Shown here: positions 17,184 to 23,776 of the stretch, piece after piece
Numbering within the stretch: position 1 is the stretch's first letter
How the letters are laid out: each line of letters starts with the position of its first letter
DNA from: Mycolicibacterium fortuitum subsp. fortuitum
Lineage (GTDB): Bacteria; Actinomycetota; Actinomycetes; Mycobacteriales; Mycobacteriaceae
DNA length: 64,000 nt
Assembly: GCF_022179545.1 (NCBI RefSeq)
Contig: NZ_AP025518.1
Location: 3,038,001 to 3,102,000 of the forward strand
Reading direction: 5' to 3'
The notes under the pieces: model-generated
What the model saw: only the letters and a program-made list of their open reading frames with translations
What the model was told of the DNA's origin: nothing
Database searches by the model: none
Translations under genes and position numbers: made by a program

Positions 17184-17741
17184 ATGGGAGATTGGTCGCA
17201 GTCACTGGTTGATGTCGAGGTGTCGGCCGAGGATGCGCCGGAGTTGGGTGCCCGCCTGACCCGGTGGCTCGTCGACACCGGGGTGATCATGGCCGAGCAA
17301 TCCGACTGCGTACTCGGGACGCCACTTGGTCACCCACCTGGACCGAACTATGGCCGCGCCGTCGGCGGCACCGAACCGGCGCCGGTGCTCTGGACGAATG
17401 GGGCCGCAATCAGCGTCGGCCGGGTGGTGTCGCACAGCTACGAGCCCGAAGCACTGGCTTGCCGGTACTGCGGGCACCAGGAGGTGCTGGCACTGAATGA
17501 TCAGAAGTTGCAGGTGGCATTCGCTGCCATAGGTGATTGGGCCGATGGTGGTGTCGGTGCGATCCCGTGCCCGTCCTGTAGTGCTGCCAACGACGTCAAC
17601 GGGTGGGACTGGAAACCGACCTGGGGCTTCGGCCTGCTGACCATGGAAGTCTGGAATTGGAATCCATTGGCGCCCGAGTTCATCGCCGACGTCAGCGGAT
17701 TCCTCGGCCACCGCGTCGTCTACACCAACTTCAAGCTCTGA
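17184..17741 (+). CDS. Hypothetical protein with a zinc ribbon
   Basis: A 185-residue soluble protein I do not recognise. It has two CxxC pairs, Cys93-x2-Cys96 (CRYCGHQE) and Cys129-x2-Cys132 (CPSCSA), spaced as in a split zinc ribbon, followed by a Trp-rich stretch (NGWDWKPTWGFG and VWNWNP). ATG 17184 is preceded by TACCGT and 6 nt, so it is probably leaderless and transcribed apart from the his operon. Neighbours are hisI and the methyltransferase. A nucleic-acid or protein-binding role would be a guess. Confidence 0.7.
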   Translation: MGDWSQSLVDVEVSAEDAPELGARLTRWLVDTGVIMAEQSDCVLGTPLGHPPGPNYGRAVGGTEPAPVLWTNGAAISVGRVVSHSYEPEALACRYCGHQEVLALNDQKLQVAFAAIGDWADGGVGAIPCPSCSAANDVNGWDWKPTWGFGLLTMEVWNWNPLAPEFIADVSGFLGHRVVYTNFKL

Positions 17742-17791
17742 GCGGGCGTTGCGGTCATCTCCTTGTCGGTGCGGTATCGCACAATAACGGG

Positions 17792-19414
17792 GTGACCGAC
17801 ACCGCTGCTGCACGCAAAGCGCGCGGTGCGTTCTTCACCCCGGCCCAAATCACCGATTACCTCGCCCAATGGGCAGTCCGGTCTGCAGAGGAGCGGATCT
17901 TGGAACCCTCGGCGGGGGATGCGGCTTTCATGGTCGCCGCCACCCGCCGGCTACAGCAGTTGGGTGTCAAGCACCCCGAGCTCGACGGCATCGAGATTCA
18001 CCGAAGCAGCGCCACCACCGCGCGCCGCCGCGTGACCGAGGCAGGAGGCCGGGCGCAGATCCGGACCGCGGATTTCTTCGCCGTCGAACCGCGGGCCGAA
18101 TACACCGCGGTGATCGGCAACCCGCCCTACATCCGCTACCAGGACTTCCGGGGCGCCACCCGGGCGCAGTCGCGCCGGGCCGCCCTCAAGGCCGGCGTCA
18201 CGCTGTCCGGGCTGGCCTCGAGCTGGGCCGCGTTCACGGTGCATGCCGCCCTGTTTCTCAAGCCGGGCGGTCGCTTGGCCCTCGTCCTGCCCGCTGAGCT
18301 GCTCAGCGTGAACTACGCGGCGGCGGTGCGGAAGTTCTTGTTCGACCGATTCGCCAGCGTCGAGCTGGTGATGTTCGACGAGCAGGTATTCCCCGAAGCC
18401 GAAGCCGATGTGGTGCTGCTGCTGGCCGATGGCTATGGCGGCGGGCCGTCTGACCACGCGGTCATCCACCGGGCCCGCAACGCGTCTGCACTGACATCTG
18501 AACTCGCACAACGACGTTGGTCCCCGCGCGATCCTGCCGACAAATGGGTCAGCGGTCTGATCGGCAACGCGCCGGTGGATGCGCTCCACGGGCTGCACAC
18601 CGACGGGCAGTTCACGATGCTGGAGAGTTGGGGTGACACCACTTTGGGCATGGTCACCGGCAACAACGGCTTTTTCGCGCTCTCCCCGGATCGGGTGCGG
18701 GAACTCGGCCTGCGCCCCACCGACCTGCTGCCGTTGTCTCCGCCCGGAAGTGCTCATCTGCGCGGCTTGACGTTGTCGGCAGAGCAGCTGGCCAAATTGG
18801 GGGAGGAAGGCCGCTCCATCCATCTGTTCCGGCCGGCCGGGCAGCCGTCTGCCGCCGCGCGGCGCTACATCGATGCCGGGCATGCTGCAGGCGTGCATCT
18901 GGCCTACAAATGCCGGGTGCGCCGGCCCTGGTATCAGGTGCCGCTGGTGAATCCTGCCGACCTGCTGCTGACCTGTATGAATGCCGATACTCCACGGTTG
19001 ATCACCAATCGGGCCAAGGCGCATCACCTCAACTCGGTGCACGGGGTGTACCTGCGCGAGGAGGTGCGGACGTTGGGCCACGACCTGCTCGGGCTGGCCG
19101 CGCTGAACTCGGTGACGGTCCTGCACGCCGAGATCGTCGGCCGTTCCTACGGCGGCGGGATCCTCAAGATCGAACCGCGTGAGGCCGACCGCTGGCTGGT
19201 TCCGTCGCCCGATCTGGTGGAGGCTCGGGCCGACGTGTTGCGGTCGGTACGCCGCCGCGTCGGCGCGCTGCTGGAGCGCGGCAAGTTGCTGGACGCGACG
19301 AGCGCTGTCGACGAGGCTTTGGGTCTGCCGGCCAAGATTGCGCTGGAACCCGTTCGGCTCGCACGCGATTCATTGGCGACACGCCGGACGGTAAGGTCTC
19401 GGCGTGCCCGCTGA
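17792..19414 (+). CDS. DNA adenine methyltransferase, Eco57I/N6-adenine type
   Basis: A 540-residue class I methyltransferase. Motif X/I region GAFFTPAQITDYLAQWA and EPSAGDAAF (residues 38-46) bind AdoMet, and motif IV is NPPY (110-113, VIGNPPYIRYQDF), the N6-adenine form. The C-terminal 300 residues should be the target-recognition part. Start GTG 17792 is taken because CACAAT and 6 nt precede it and the methyltransferase fold begins there; the open frame reaches back into the previous gene. It overlaps the next gene by 11 nt. The pair is a type II-like restriction-modification unit, or a maintenance methylase if the nuclease is inactive. Confidence 0.88.
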   Translation: MTDTAAARKARGAFFTPAQITDYLAQWAVRSAEERILEPSAGDAAFMVAATRRLQQLGVKHPELDGIEIHRSSATTARRRVTEAGGRAQIRTADFFAVEPRAEYTAVIGNPPYIRYQDFRGATRAQSRRAALKAGVTLSGLASSWAAFTVHAALFLKPGGRLALVLPAELLSVNYAAAVRKFLFDRFASVELVMFDEQVFPEAEADVVLLLADGYGGGPSDHAVIHRARNASALTSELAQRRWSPRDPADKWVSGLIGNAPVDALHGLHTDGQFTMLESWGDTTLGMVTGNNGFFALSPDRVRELGLRPTDLLPLSPPGSAHLRGLTLSAEQLAKLGEEGRSIHLFRPAGQPSAAARRYIDAGHAAGVHLAYKCRVRRPWYQVPLVNPADLLLTCMNADTPRLITNRAKAHHLNSVHGVYLREEVRTLGHDLLGLAALNSVTVLHAEIVGRSYGGGILKIEPREADRWLVPSPDLVEARADVLRSVRRRVGALLERGKLLDATSAVDEALGLPAKIALEPVRLARDSLATRRTVRSRRAR

Positions 19415-20405: not shown

Positions 20406-21203
20406 CTACAGCACCCGCGAGCTCGCCTTCGCCCGCGCGCTCCAGCGGCCGTCCTGAAAACCCACCACCACCGGGTGGGCGAAGGCCTCACTCACGTGGT
20501 CGGTGTTGACCACGTCGTGGGCCGGTCCGCTGGCCACTGTGCGACCGTGGGCGATGAGCAGGGCGTGCGTAGTGCTGGTGGGCAGCTCCTCGAGATGGTG
20601 GGTAACCAGGATCGAGGCCATATTCGGATGCGAATCATCCAGGGTGTCAAGGGTTTCCAGTAGCTGCTCGCGAGCCGCGACGTCCAGTCCGGTGGTGGGC
20701 TCGTCCAGCAGCAACAGCTGCGGATCTGCGATCAACGCTCGGGCGATCAGAGTACGGCCGCGCTCGCCCTGCGACAGCGTGGGCCAGATCGCGTCGGCCC
20801 GGGCCGAGAGGCCCACGGTGTCGATGAGATCGTCGGCCCGGCGCACCTGCTCGGGGGTCGGCGCCCAGTGCGCTGCGATGTCGATGGTGGCGGTGATGCC
20901 GGTGAGCACCACCTCGCGCACGGTCAGCGGATACTGCAGGCGGTGCCGGGGATTTACGTGACCGATCGAGCGGCGCAGCACCGCCAGGTCGGTGCGACCC
21001 ATCTGACCGCCGAGCACATGCACCGTGCCCGTTGTCGGAAAGGTCACGGCGGCACAGAAACCCAGCAGCGTGCTCTTGCCCGCGCCATTGGGGCCGAGTA
21101 GTGCCCAGTGCTCACCGGACTGCACCGTCAGTGAAATGCCGTCGATGATCTGTTTGCCGTCGCGGCGGAAGGTCACATCGGCGATGTCGAGGACCGGGGT
21201 CAT
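20406..21203 (-). CDS. ABC transporter ATP-binding protein without a permease
   Basis: A 265-residue ABC ATPase: Walker A GPNGAGKST (37-45), signature LSQGERGR, Walker B LLLLDEPTTGLD and a switch His in LVTHHLEELP. It most resembles stand-alone ATPases annotated as Fe/Mn or molybdate-type importers with the SIGHVNPRH Q-loop region. No membrane subunit is adjacent; the gene overlaps the GntR regulator upstream by ATGA and so is co-transcribed with it. It may serve a permease elsewhere or have a non-transport role. Ends 7 nt from the convergent nuclease gene. Confidence 0.9.
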   Translation of the reverse strand: MTPVLDIADVTFRRDGKQIIDGISLTVQSGEHWALLGPNGAGKSTLLGFCAAVTFPTTGTVHVLGGQMGRTDLAVLRRSIGHVNPRHRLQYPLTVREVVLTGITATIDIAAHWAPTPEQVRRADDLIDTVGLSARADAIWPTLSQGERGRTLIARALIADPQLLLLDEPTTGLDVAAREQLLETLDTLDDSHPNMASILVTHHLEELPTSTTHALLIAHGRTVASGPAHDVVNTDHVSEAFAHPVVVGFQDGRWSARAKASSRVL

Positions 21204-21871
21204 GCGAAAGACTCCTTCAGTGAGCTCAGGTGGGTTCTGCTGGCGGCCGCGGCGGCTTCGGGATCACGGGCGACGATCGCGTCGGCCAGCTGCTGATGCA
21301 GCTCGTGATCGCACGGCTCGGACGCGACCGGCCGGATCTTGAGCATGTCGATCATCGCCAACCGCAGCCGCGGCAGGAACGCGTCGAACAACTGGATCAA
21401 CACCTCGTTGTGAGCCGCGGCGATCACTGTGCGGTGAAACGCCATATCGGCGTCGACGTGATCGGGTACCGACTGTCCGACCACGCCGCGGGCGGCCAGG
21501 GTGCGGCGGATCGCCCGGAGGTCGGCGGGGGTGCGCCGGGCTGCGGCCAGTGCGGCGGCCTCGGCCTCGATGGCGATGCGGGCTTCGATCACCGAGACGA
21601 TGGTGGCCTGGCGCAGCACCGTGTCCCAGTCTTCGGCGGCGTCCAGTGCCGTGACGAACACCCCGGCACCCTGGCGGCTCTCCAGTACGCCCTTGCCGGA
21701 CAGTTCGCGGATGGCTTCGCGCAAGGTGGAACGGCCCACCCCGAGCTGTGCGGCCAGGGTGGTCTCACCGGGCAGCCGATGGCCGAGCGGCCATTCACCT
21801 TGGCGGATGCGCGTCAGGAGTAGCTGGGCGGTCTGGGTGGCCAGCGGGTGACGCTGAACTTGGGAGCTCAT
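21200..21871 (-). CDS. GntR-family (FadR subfamily) transcription regulator
   Basis: A 223-residue regulator: winged HTH at about residues 10-75 (GHRLPGETTLAAQLGVGRST then LREAIRELSGKGVLESRQGAGVFV) and an all-helical FCD domain with Asp/His metal or ligand residues (DADMAFHRTVIAAAHNEVL and DHELHQQLADAI). ATG 21871 is the first sensible start; the frame runs on antisense to leuA above it. It is divergent from leuA and overlaps the ABC ATPase gene, so it may control that ATPase, leuA, or both. Ligand unknown, perhaps a small carboxylic acid. Confidence 0.9.
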   Translation of the reverse strand: MSSQVQRHPLATQTAQLLLTRIRQGEWPLGHRLPGETTLAAQLGVGRSTLREAIRELSGKGVLESRQGAGVFVTALDAAEDWDTVLRQATIVSVIEARIAIEAEAAALAAARRTPADLRAIRRTLAARGVVGQSVPDHVDADMAFHRTVIAAAHNEVLIQLFDAFLPRLRLAMIDMLKIRPVASEPCDHELHQQLADAIVARDPEAAAAASRTHLSSLKESFA

Positions 21872-21902
21872 CGAAACCTGTCTACTTGTCTGAGGAGTTG
21901 TG

Positions 21903-21908
21903 TATAGT
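21903..21908 (+). promoter_or_regulatory. -10 element for the leuA leader
   Basis: TATAGT lies 9 nt before the leader-peptide ATG, so the transcript should begin at or within a few bases of that start codon. No convincing -35 is visible. Confidence 0.65.
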
Positions 21909-21917
21909 CTAACCATC

Positions 21918-21959
21918 ATGACGCGCGTCCTCCTCCTTAGCCGCCGCGGCGGGGCCTGA
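21918..21959 (+). CDS. leuL: leuA leader peptide (13 residues, [13 protein letters not shown])
   Basis: A 13-codon open frame begins just downstream of a TATAGT -10 and ends with TGA at 21957-21959. Codons 4-7 are GTC CTC CTC CTT (Val-Leu-Leu-Leu), the pattern expected for a ribosome-stalling leader that senses leucyl-tRNA. It ends 68 nt before the leuA start. Downstream sequence can form competing hairpins. The design, rather than homology, supports it: leucine shortage would stall the ribosome on the Leu codons and change the fold ahead of leuA. Confidence 0.75.
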
Positions 21960-22020
21960 ATCGACCGGCCCCCTGCCGTGGGGCTGTGTCGCGCCGGTCG
22001 AACTCCGATCCGACCGAAGG
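21941..22020 (+). promoter_or_regulatory. leuA attenuator with mutually exclusive hairpins
   Basis: Four stems compete: CCGCCGCGGCGG self-complementary (21941-21952); GGGGCC (21951-21956) with GGCCCC (21967-21972); an 8-bp stem CGACCGGC (21962-21969) with GCCGGTCG (21993-22000) enclosing GCCCC/GGGGC; and CGGTCG (21995-22000) with CGACCG (22011-22016), which abuts the leuA ribosome site GAAGG (22016-22020). The last two share CGGTCG, so only one forms. No U-run follows, so control is more likely at translation than by Rho-independent termination. Confidence 0.65.
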
Positions 22021-22027
22021 CACCCTC

Positions 22028-23776
22028 ATGACCACTTCTGCATTTCCCACCATCAGTACCCCGGCAGGGGATATCCCGGCCACCGCGCCGACGTGGAATC
22101 GGCAGCGACATTCGCAAATGCCATCGCACCGCTACGCGTCCGTCTACGACCGTGTCGAAGTTCCATTGTTCCAACGTGATTGGCCGACGGCCCGGATCGA
22201 AGCCGCGCCGCTGTGGGTACCGGTGGATCTGCGTGACGGCAATCAAGCGCTGGCCGAGCCCATGGACCCAGCCCGCAAACGCCGCTTCTTCGAACTGCTG
22301 GTGGCCATGGGCTACAAGGAGATCGAGGTCGGGTACCCGTCCGCCTCGCAGACCGATTTCGACTTCGTCCGACTGCTGGCCGAATCCGACATCGCCCCAC
22401 CGGACGTCACCATCGTCGTGTTCGTCCCGGCGCGCCGCGACCTGATCGAACGAACCGTGGAATCGGTGCGCGGAATCAGCAACGAGGTCGTCATCCACAT
22501 GTACACCGCCACAGCTCCGACCTGGCGCGACGTGGTGCTGGGCAAGGACCGTGCCGAACTGCGGGCCCTGATCTTGGCCGGCGCGCGCGACGTCCTCGAA
22601 TTCACCGACGGCATGCCGAATGTGCGGTTCGAATTCTCCCCGGAGGTGTTCAACCTGACCGAACCCGACTATGTGCTCGAGCTGTGCGACGCGGTGACGG
22701 AGAGGTGGCAGGCCACGCCCGACCGTCCGGTCATCCTCAACCTGCCGGCCACCGTCGAGATCGCCACGCCGAACGTGTATGCCGACCAGATCGAATACAT
22801 GCACCGCAACGTGTCCCGACGCGACAGTGTCATCCTGTCGGTGCACCCGCACAACGACCGGGGCACCGGTATCGCCTGCGCGGAACTCGCGGTGCTGGCC
22901 GGAGCGCAGCGAGTCGAGGGGTGCGTGTTCGGCAACGGCGAGCGGACCGGCAATGTCGATATCGCCACCTTGGCGCTGAATCTGCATGCCCAGGGCGTGG
23001 ATCCGATGATCGACTTCTCCGACATCGACGAGATCGCGCGGACCGTCAGCCATTGCACCCGCATGCCGATCCACGAACGGCACCCATATGTCGGGGACAT
23101 GGTGCACACGGCGTTTTCCGGGACGCACCAGGATGCGATCAAAAAGGGCTTCGCCGAGCATCGACGACGTGCTGCGGCCATCGGCCAGCCGGAGAACGAG
23201 ATCGATTGGCGCGTACCGTATCTGCCGATCGACCCGACCGACATCGGTCGCACGTATGACGCGGTGATTCGGGTTAATTCGCAATCCGGTAAGGGCGGCA
23301 TCGCCTACCTGCTGGCAGGAGAGTACGGGCTGGACCTGCCGCGTCGGCTGCAGATCGATTTCGCCCGCCACGTCCAGGCCCACACCGATGAAAGCGGTGC
23401 CGAGGTGACCGCCGCCGAACTGTTCGACCTGTTCGAGGCGGCCTATCTGGAGCCGTCAGGCCCGGTGCAACTCAAGGACTGGCATACCGGCGGCGACGGC
23501 GCGGCGGCAGTGACCGATCTGACGCTGGTCTTCGACGGTCGCACCACGACGAGTAGCCATCGCGGCATCGGGCCGGTGGACGCACTGCGGGCCGCACTCG
23601 CTGAGATCGGGCATCCGGTGGAGGTGCTGAGCCTGACCCAGCAATCGGTCGGCAGCACCGCCGTCAGCTATCTGGAATACCGGTCGGGCGGTCGCACGGG
23701 ATGGGCGTGCGGTCGCAGCGATTCTGTACTCGCAGCTTCGATGGCGGCGGTGCTGCGGGCGGTCAACGCCCCTTGA
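22028..23776 (+). CDS. leuA: 2-isopropylmalate synthase LeuA
   Basis: First committed enzyme of leucine synthesis, joining acetyl-CoA and 2-ketoisovalerate. The 582-residue type-2 LeuA has the catalytic [17 protein letters not shown], the metal site [19 protein letters not shown] and a C-terminal regulatory domain (about residues 430-582) that binds leucine in relatives. ATG 22028 follows GAAGG by 7 nt; upstream in-frame codons fall inside the attenuator. Leader-peptide control is evident. The gene sits away from the usual ask-asd/leuA neighbourhood, so the genome may carry another copy. It overlaps bcpB by 14 nt at the 3' end. Confidence 0.95.

Follow-up and report, generated by a model that had tools for sequence, protein, structure and literature searches.

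The window, a stretch of 64,000 nucleotides from Mycolicibacterium fortuitum subsp. fortuitum, carries a second copy of the 2-isopropylmalate synthase gene, hereafter leuA2, which the initial annotation had taken for a plain leuA. The leuA1 gene of the same genome lies 2.9 Mb away and has its own leader, VQRVLLLGRRDGV (with stop). leuA2 is accompanied by a divergent gntR gene, an operator-like site and a leader gene followed by structured RNA (Table 1). The leader and this RNA are a LEU element, the regulatory RNA published in 2005 for actinobacterial leuA. Re-examination returned exactly the positions and pairings that the initial annotation had given for CGGTCG and both copies of CGACCG. The operator-like site holds an imperfect palindrome, ACTnnTCnGAnnAGT (read by eye), and its conserved 12-mer, TTGTCTGAGGAG, occurs once in the window. 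An ABC transporter ATPase gene (20406-21203) overlaps the end of gntR, the two perhaps forming one operon; such a gene seemingly lies near leuA2 in locus L009 as well, as judged by eye. Further away, an Eco57I-type DNA methyltransferase (PF07669, PF02384, PF22837) is encoded at 17603-19414.

Table 1. Features of the gntR-leuA2 region, in window coordinates.
Feature	Position	Strand	Basis
gntR, FCD subfamily regulator, divergent from leuA2	21200-21871	-	Pfam PF00392 and PF07729
Operator-like site ACTTGTCTGAGGAGT	21884-21898		between gntR and leuA2; conserved 12-mer TTGTCTGAGGAG
-10 hexamer TATAGT	21903-21908	+	sequence; TANNNT spacing kept in relatives
Leader peptide gene, 13 codons, ATG at 21918, stop TGA	21918-21959	+	sequence; leader counts in relatives
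Helix A, 5′ strand (last leader codons)	21944-21954	+	helix of 11 base pairs
Helix B, 5′ strand CGACCGGC	21962-21969	+	pseudoknot with helix A
Helix A, 3′ strand	21971-21981	+	pairs with 21944-21954
Switch strand GCCGGTCG, 3′ strand of helix B	21993-22000	+	bases 21995-22000 also 5′ strand of B′
CGACCG next to the SD, pairing partner in B′	22011-22016	+	pairs with 21995-22000
Shine-Dalgarno sequence (SD) GAAGG of leuA2	22016-22020	+	sequence
leuA2, paralogous 2-isopropylmalate synthase gene carrying an allosteric domain	22028-23776	+	PF00682, PF22615, PF08502; 51% identity to leuA1

Leader gene and pseudoknot core

The leader gene, upstream of leuA2, is rich in leucine codons, with the run CTC CTC CTT at codons 5-7. 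A gap of 9 nt separates the TATAGT hexamer from the leader ATG. This spacing is near-leaderless, with a transcription start predicted from the sequence at about 21914-21918. A strict sigma-70 consensus scan gave no promoter by that rule. In relatives, leader starts were assigned with a promoter-blind rule, which left 47 of 52 thinned leuA2 leaders to be scored (5 had no start). A TANNNT motif was found 4-10 nt ahead of the leader start in 41 of these 47 and in 24 of 29 leuA1 leaders; other 7-nt bins held 0-4 cases each, and the motif was rare further upstream. The leaderless spacing put forward in the initial annotation is therefore kept in relatives. An earlier rule, which required at least two Leu codons and was biased to starts with a -10 motif, gave TANNNT in 44/49 leuA2 and 29/29 leuA1 leaders. 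As the promoter-blind rule picks the frame by Leu content, neither leader count is an independent test of Leu conservation. Three leaders (L008, L104, L117) read A-L-V-L, with two Leu codons only, and one (L224) has no Leu run. The hexamer TCATGA stands both at the leader start (21916-21921) and at the leuA2 start (22026-22031), and the two copies pair in the minimum free energy (MFE) fold, probably by chance.

Helices A and B cross each other, and the conserved core in the window is thus a pseudoknot. The initial annotation had described four competing stems and overlooked helix A. Folding of the window alone gave a weak signal (MFE z of -1.94, 7 of 200 shuffles as good, the MFE structure containing the downstream hairpin). 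Since single-sequence folding was too weak, comparison of relatives was used instead. Helix statistics were obtained on 46 of 76 thinned leuA2 leaders, a set in which nearly all Nocardia types were left out. Paired cells reached 97.0% for helix A and 96.2% for helix B, as compared to 38-51% when the strands were slid. Helix A showed 5 double-change cells at two pairs, a number that none of 500 shuffles reached, while its count of pairs with a double change was unremarkable (112/500 shuffles). Helix B had no double change among the same leaders.

A covariance model was built from 18 leaders, the window included; it models helix A only. Of 198 genus genomes, 197 had a match at E ≤ 0.001, one of them (G076) only at 3.4e-4; under strict filters, matches came from 30 of 296 genomes sampled across the phylum. 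Rfam covariance models, including those of T-boxes, riboswitches and known leaders, had no match in the window at the gathering score; at E ≤ 10, positions 21850-22100 gave one sub-threshold match, on the other strand.

The strand shared by helices B and B′

The sequence CGGTCG at 21995-22000 can pair either with CGACCG at 21962-21967, within helix B, or with the second CGACCG, in helix B′. The initial annotation had proposed two mutually exclusive pairings of this kind, the second adjoining the SD, and this proposal holds in relatives: in the 46 leuA2 leaders that gave the value for helix B, 90.2% of the B′ cells are paired, versus 7-45% when slid. Four leaders that MAFFT misplaces at B′ (L009, L227, L008, L117) were scored as misses. 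B′ contains 7 double-change cells, as many as in none of 500 shuffles. The covariation score was likewise reached by 0/500 shuffles and the number of paired cells by 23/500; two of the five shuffle controls were unremarkable (pairs with a double change, 469/500; pair types, 460/500).

The coupling was also visible without an alignment, in 45 thinned leuA2 leaders of which 18 were uninformative (both motifs, none, or another base). With GGTC-G in the leader, the spacer holds CGAC (17 cases) and in no case TGAC alone; with GGTC-A it holds TGAC (9 cases), and CGAC alone once. This 17:0 versus 1:9 distribution corresponds to a Fisher value of 2e-6, or 0.0071 when thinned to 30 leaders. On the tree, the same coupling amounts to 4-5 independent changes and was not significant, significance being out of reach with so few changes. 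The partner followed in 1.8 of these changes on average, never went the opposite way, and showed no difference in 2.2. The initial annotation had staked its reading on conserved Leu codons and stem complementarity in relatives; both were found, with reading frames chosen by Leu content.

When spacers were swapped among leuA2 leaders, the native combination of spacer and switch strand gave the stronger pairing (0/5000 permutations, n=78; 5/5000, n=41), a preference that was not clear at the strictest thinning (340/5000, n=24). Compared with dinucleotide-shuffled spacers, downstream pairing had a mean z of -0.74 in leuA2, with 12/51 leaders below p 0.05; in leuA1 it was not clearly stronger than in the shuffles (mean z -0.31, 2/31). 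B′ is broken or shortened in L083, L093, L110, L121 and L122. The GACCG form of B′ was not supported as a trait of all LEU elements, 18 of 22 thinned leuA1 leaders having neither CGAC nor TGAC in the spacer. Some own-spacer preference exists in leuA1 as well, with a different kind of pairing (7, 2 and 8 out of 5000 permutations with n=33, 17 and 11). Overall, the comparison of sequences suggests that one RNA strand may alternate between two partners, one inside the element and one next to the SD.

A second way of closing the SD, which the initial annotation did not contain, is a base stem formed by the Leu codons themselves with the SD. This stem is strong in leuA1, where it averages about -12 kcal/mol with any spacer. 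In leuA2 it is stronger with the own spacer than with swapped ones (-11.07 versus -9.08 kcal/mol, 0/5000 permutations, n=41). In the window it is reduced to CCUU:AAGG, worth +1.4 kcal/mol alone, and the best duplex, at -5.5, lies elsewhere. Weak values, from -2.7 to -7.7, are shared by ten rows made up of the window and its closest relatives (L001, L067, L068, L069, L072, L076, L083, L084, L085, L090). In these, B′ would have to do the closing.

The leuA2 host and a candidate control by leucine supply

A gntR orthologue (E ≤ 3e-80) is present in 58 of 396 genus genomes. Across the order, at least 28 of 397 genomes encode a leuA2-type protein (identity of 60% or more). The 80 named gntR loci come from Mycolicibacterium/Mycobacterium, Nocardia, Pseudonocardia, Acrocarpospora and Leucobacter; 69 have leuA2, which is absent from all Pseudonocardia and Acrocarpospora loci. 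In a quick tree, 101 leuA2 rows separate from three leuA1 rows with full support. The LEU model matches all 69 named loci with leuA2 (E ≤ 1.6e-9) and, at E < 0.01, none of 19 gntR loci without intact leuA2, three of which score 0.056-0.094; these 19 loci represent 13 genomes, six occurring twice. Such presence counts rest on the covariance model, the hairpin finder being permissive and having misplaced rows (e.g. L103, L113). The 12-mer TTGTCTGAGGAG is found upstream of gntR in 67 of the 69 loci with leuA2, plus one as a variant, and in 10 of the 11 without. The operator-like site is thus kept without leuA2, and the LEU element is lost with it, so that the former goes with gntR and the latter with leuA2. 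A deletion scar is seen in L113, where gntR and the leader start are retained and most of leuA2 and the RNA element are gone.

The persistence of the operator-like site in loci without leuA2 (10/11) would fit a situation in which GntR alone governs leuA2 and the LEU element is a functionless relic copied together with leuA. This seems very improbable, as the element is kept in 69/69 leuA2 loci across several genera and lost with the gene, and as helix A shows double changes.

The enzyme itself varies. Fifteen of 90 complete leuA2 proteins are shorter than 540 aa, versus none of 28 leuA1 proteins, and PF08502 was found in 0 of the 9 short ones scanned; it is present in a full-length control (L009). 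On the tree, proteins below 520 aa (13 of 84) require at least 7 changes. The short leuA2 apparently reflect several separate domain losses, with the LEU element retained. Twelve leuA2 proteins of 458-475 aa (L008, L103, L107, L117, L120, L159, L180, L184, L185, L189, L222, L223) are apparently without the allosteric domain, PF08502 being absent from all six that were scanned.

On balance, we think it probable that the LEU element acts as a translational attenuator and controls leuA2 translation according to leucine supply. The (near-)leaderless transcript would allow ribosomes to initiate on the 13-codon leader straight away. A shortage of charged tRNA-Leu would make a ribosome wait on codons 5-7 and would weaken helix A; strand 21993-22000 would then remain in helix B and leave the SD free. 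If leucine is plentiful, ribosomes would translate the leader to its end and so occupy the 5′ strands of helices A and B. The released strand could pair with the partner at 22011-22016, and the resulting B′ hairpin, which abuts the SD, would make leuA2 poorly translated. In many relatives, a stem between the Leu codons and the SD could offer a further way of closing an idle leader; this stem is weak in the window. GntR would add control at the promoter. The analysis establishes the anatomy of the element, its conservation, its association with leuA2 and the lack of a terminator-like site, whereas the stalling of the ribosome, the direction of the switch, the effect on translation and the role of GntR are inferred.

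The level of control was approached through the search for terminators. No terminator-like or rho-independent terminator site was found in the scan, which makes translation the likelier level and agrees with the initial annotation, where the missing U-run had led to the same view. Leader translation might alternatively govern a Rho-dependent or pausing-linked termination before leuA2. Rho dependence lies outside what the sequence scan can score, and a leader with branched-chain amino acid (BCAA) codons before ilvB1 of M. tuberculosis is reported to be a terminator-type attenuator (PMC13236596). With a terminator-like site absent from the scan and B′ stopping at the SD, where no U-run follows, we regard transcription attenuation as quite improbable here.

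Rough energies were computed with a pseudoknot penalty of 9.6 kcal/mol. In the window, the A+B pseudoknot (-34.8) and A+B′ (-35.8) are within 1 kcal/mol of each other; with A blocked, B (-23.1) is far more stable than the downstream hairpin (-10.5), in favour of the model. By the same estimates the pseudoknot is favoured over A plus the downstream hairpin in only 12/49 leuA2 leaders, a point against it, and in 20/29 leuA1 leaders. If the ribosome footprint is assumed to end 15 nt beyond the P-site base, the edge of a ribosome at the stop codon would fall at 21969, the last base of the helix B 5′ strand, and that of a ribosome waiting on codons 5-7 at 21942-21948. These modelled edges suit a rule by which finished translation would free the switch strand for B′ and waiting would keep it in B. 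The stalled ribosome's assumed footprint covers at most 5 of the 11 pairs of helix A, which counts against the mechanism.

Nested folding with footprints, a model that cannot represent the pseudoknot, gave for the window an SD unpaired probability of 0.22 when stalled, 0.25 at the stop and 0.28 without ribosome. B′ formed in all of these states, with almost no change of the SD between the stalled and the finished ribosome, and equilibrium folding was therefore rejected as a proof of switching for the window. Over 49 leuA2 leaders, the mean effect was small, 0.42 stalled versus 0.33 at the stop, 38 being higher when stalled, as the model expects; over 29 leuA1 leaders, it was 0.35 versus 0.31 (18 of 29 higher when stalled).

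Codon sensing itself has to be weighed. The 2005 paper cites experimental evidence that Leu-codon mutations are without influence on regulation, which counts against it, and argues from these silent mutations for a protein site, with ML1624 orthologues proposed as the binder (PMC1262725). The pseudoknot would then be a putative site for a regulatory protein, and the Leu codons would mainly be a strand pairing with the SD rather than sensors of leucine. The very high conservation of helices A and B and the own-spacer preference of the leuA2 Leu-codon:SD stem are compatible with this explanation. We nevertheless hold it to be unlikely, given that a leader frame with leaderless spacing is retained in most leaders and that a sibling element has Val codons at the same place, which fits codon sensing.

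A valine-coded sibling, leuC elements and known systems

Weak second matches led to another class of element, which lies ahead of a gene for a protein of about 150-170 aa. In the genome of the window, this sibling (G000:C1:2294378-2294486; L003 1150-1785 with the following gene) has the leader VPRRLVVATRSGV (with stop). Two Val codons are present in all 31 genus leaders aligned, a set made of 27 of 29 thinned leaders and 4 earlier ones. Helices A and B have 100% of cells paired and the SD-side helix 94.5% (5-53% when slid). The helices hardly vary and shuffles reach the observed values, so that no covariation is added. Pairing of the spacer with the switch strand exceeds that of mononucleotide shuffles (mean z -2.41; 21/31 below p 0.05), and TANNNT stands at 4-10 nt in 30/31 leaders under the promoter-blind rule. 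R2, the model of this sibling class, has matches in 192 of 198 genus genomes, part of them solely through cross-matching to leuA1, and in 36 of 200 genomes across the order. Further genera of the family carry the sibling as well (L334, L335, L336, L342).

The protein encoded downstream of the sibling is a stand-alone LeuA-type regulatory domain by profile comparison (probability 98, E 2.8e-13), with an E of 4.8e-4 against 2-isopropylmalate synthase chains. Compared with the PDB, its predicted structure (mean pLDDT 86.5) gave 12 matches at E ≤ 0.001, every one being either M. tuberculosis LeuA or the LiCMS regulatory domain. The copy from the genome of the window had no Pfam match at E ≤ 1. LEU elements also stand ahead of leuC in two family f22 genomes (L269 1600-3054, L275 1601-3070), with the leader MRRVVLLLSSRDETSF, read by eye, in L269.

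These elements could well belong to a wider actinobacterial family of leaderless, pseudoknotted translational attenuators, although we put this forward tentatively. In such a family a strand would move from the pseudoknot helix to an SD helix and the codons would be re-coded, with Leu for leuA, leuA2 and leuC and Val for the LeuA-regulatory-domain protein. leuA2, having repeatedly lost its allosteric domain, would rely on the RNA and GntR instead of feedback inhibition. The 2005 paper leaves the regulation of actinobacterial leuA open, with an attenuator-like leader, no terminator and Leu-codon mutations cited as silent (PMC1262725). Natural variants separate codon sensing from structure, namely leuA2 with a seemingly changed SD-closing stem, joint losses of leader and gene, and the Val-coded sibling, and they make this question directly testable.

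The initial annotation had regarded the design at leuA2 as a specific, testable one. As such it has precedents: the LEU element is already described (PMC1262725), and so is a leaderless leuL1 without terminator in Streptomyces lividans (PMC8079986). Seliverstov et al. reported Leu-run leaders, a pseudoknot and a Leu-codon:SD stem upstream of actinobacterial leuA (PMC1262725). The window element shares with theirs the Leu-run leader peptide, the pseudoknot, a leuA target and the fact that no terminator is named. It differs in standing before a second leuA with gntR and in its weak Leu-codon:SD base stem; it also has the SD-side partner B′, to which the alternative hairpin of their Fig. 6 is possibly equal (PMC1262725). 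leuL1, before leuA of S. lividans, is likewise a leaderless Leu leader (MRFGLLLLSCRGEGL) with no typical Rho-independent terminator and, unlike the window, is described in the portions cited without gntR, a second leuA or a B′ switch (PMC8079986).

Other leaders before leuA are known. A ribosome-protected uORF is reported in M. abscessus (PMC4974804), and leu leaders in C. glutamicum (PMC4046766) and C. diphtheriae (PMC5784534). These translated or predicted leaders resemble that of the window; the same accounts, in their excerpts, contain no B′ switch model and no leuA2. In the ilvB1 attenuator of M. tuberculosis, a uORF with BCAA codons decides between two RNA folds, as proposed here, but it is reported to act via a terminator (PMC13236596), and none was found here. 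The terminator hairpin with U-run of a classical transcription attenuator was not found in the scan either. Searches of one open-access library brought up no description of a LEU element hosted by a leuA2 with gntR, none of the comparative case for B′ and none of a Val-coded sibling. Overall, the kind of element is already known, and the second leuA as its host is a variant.
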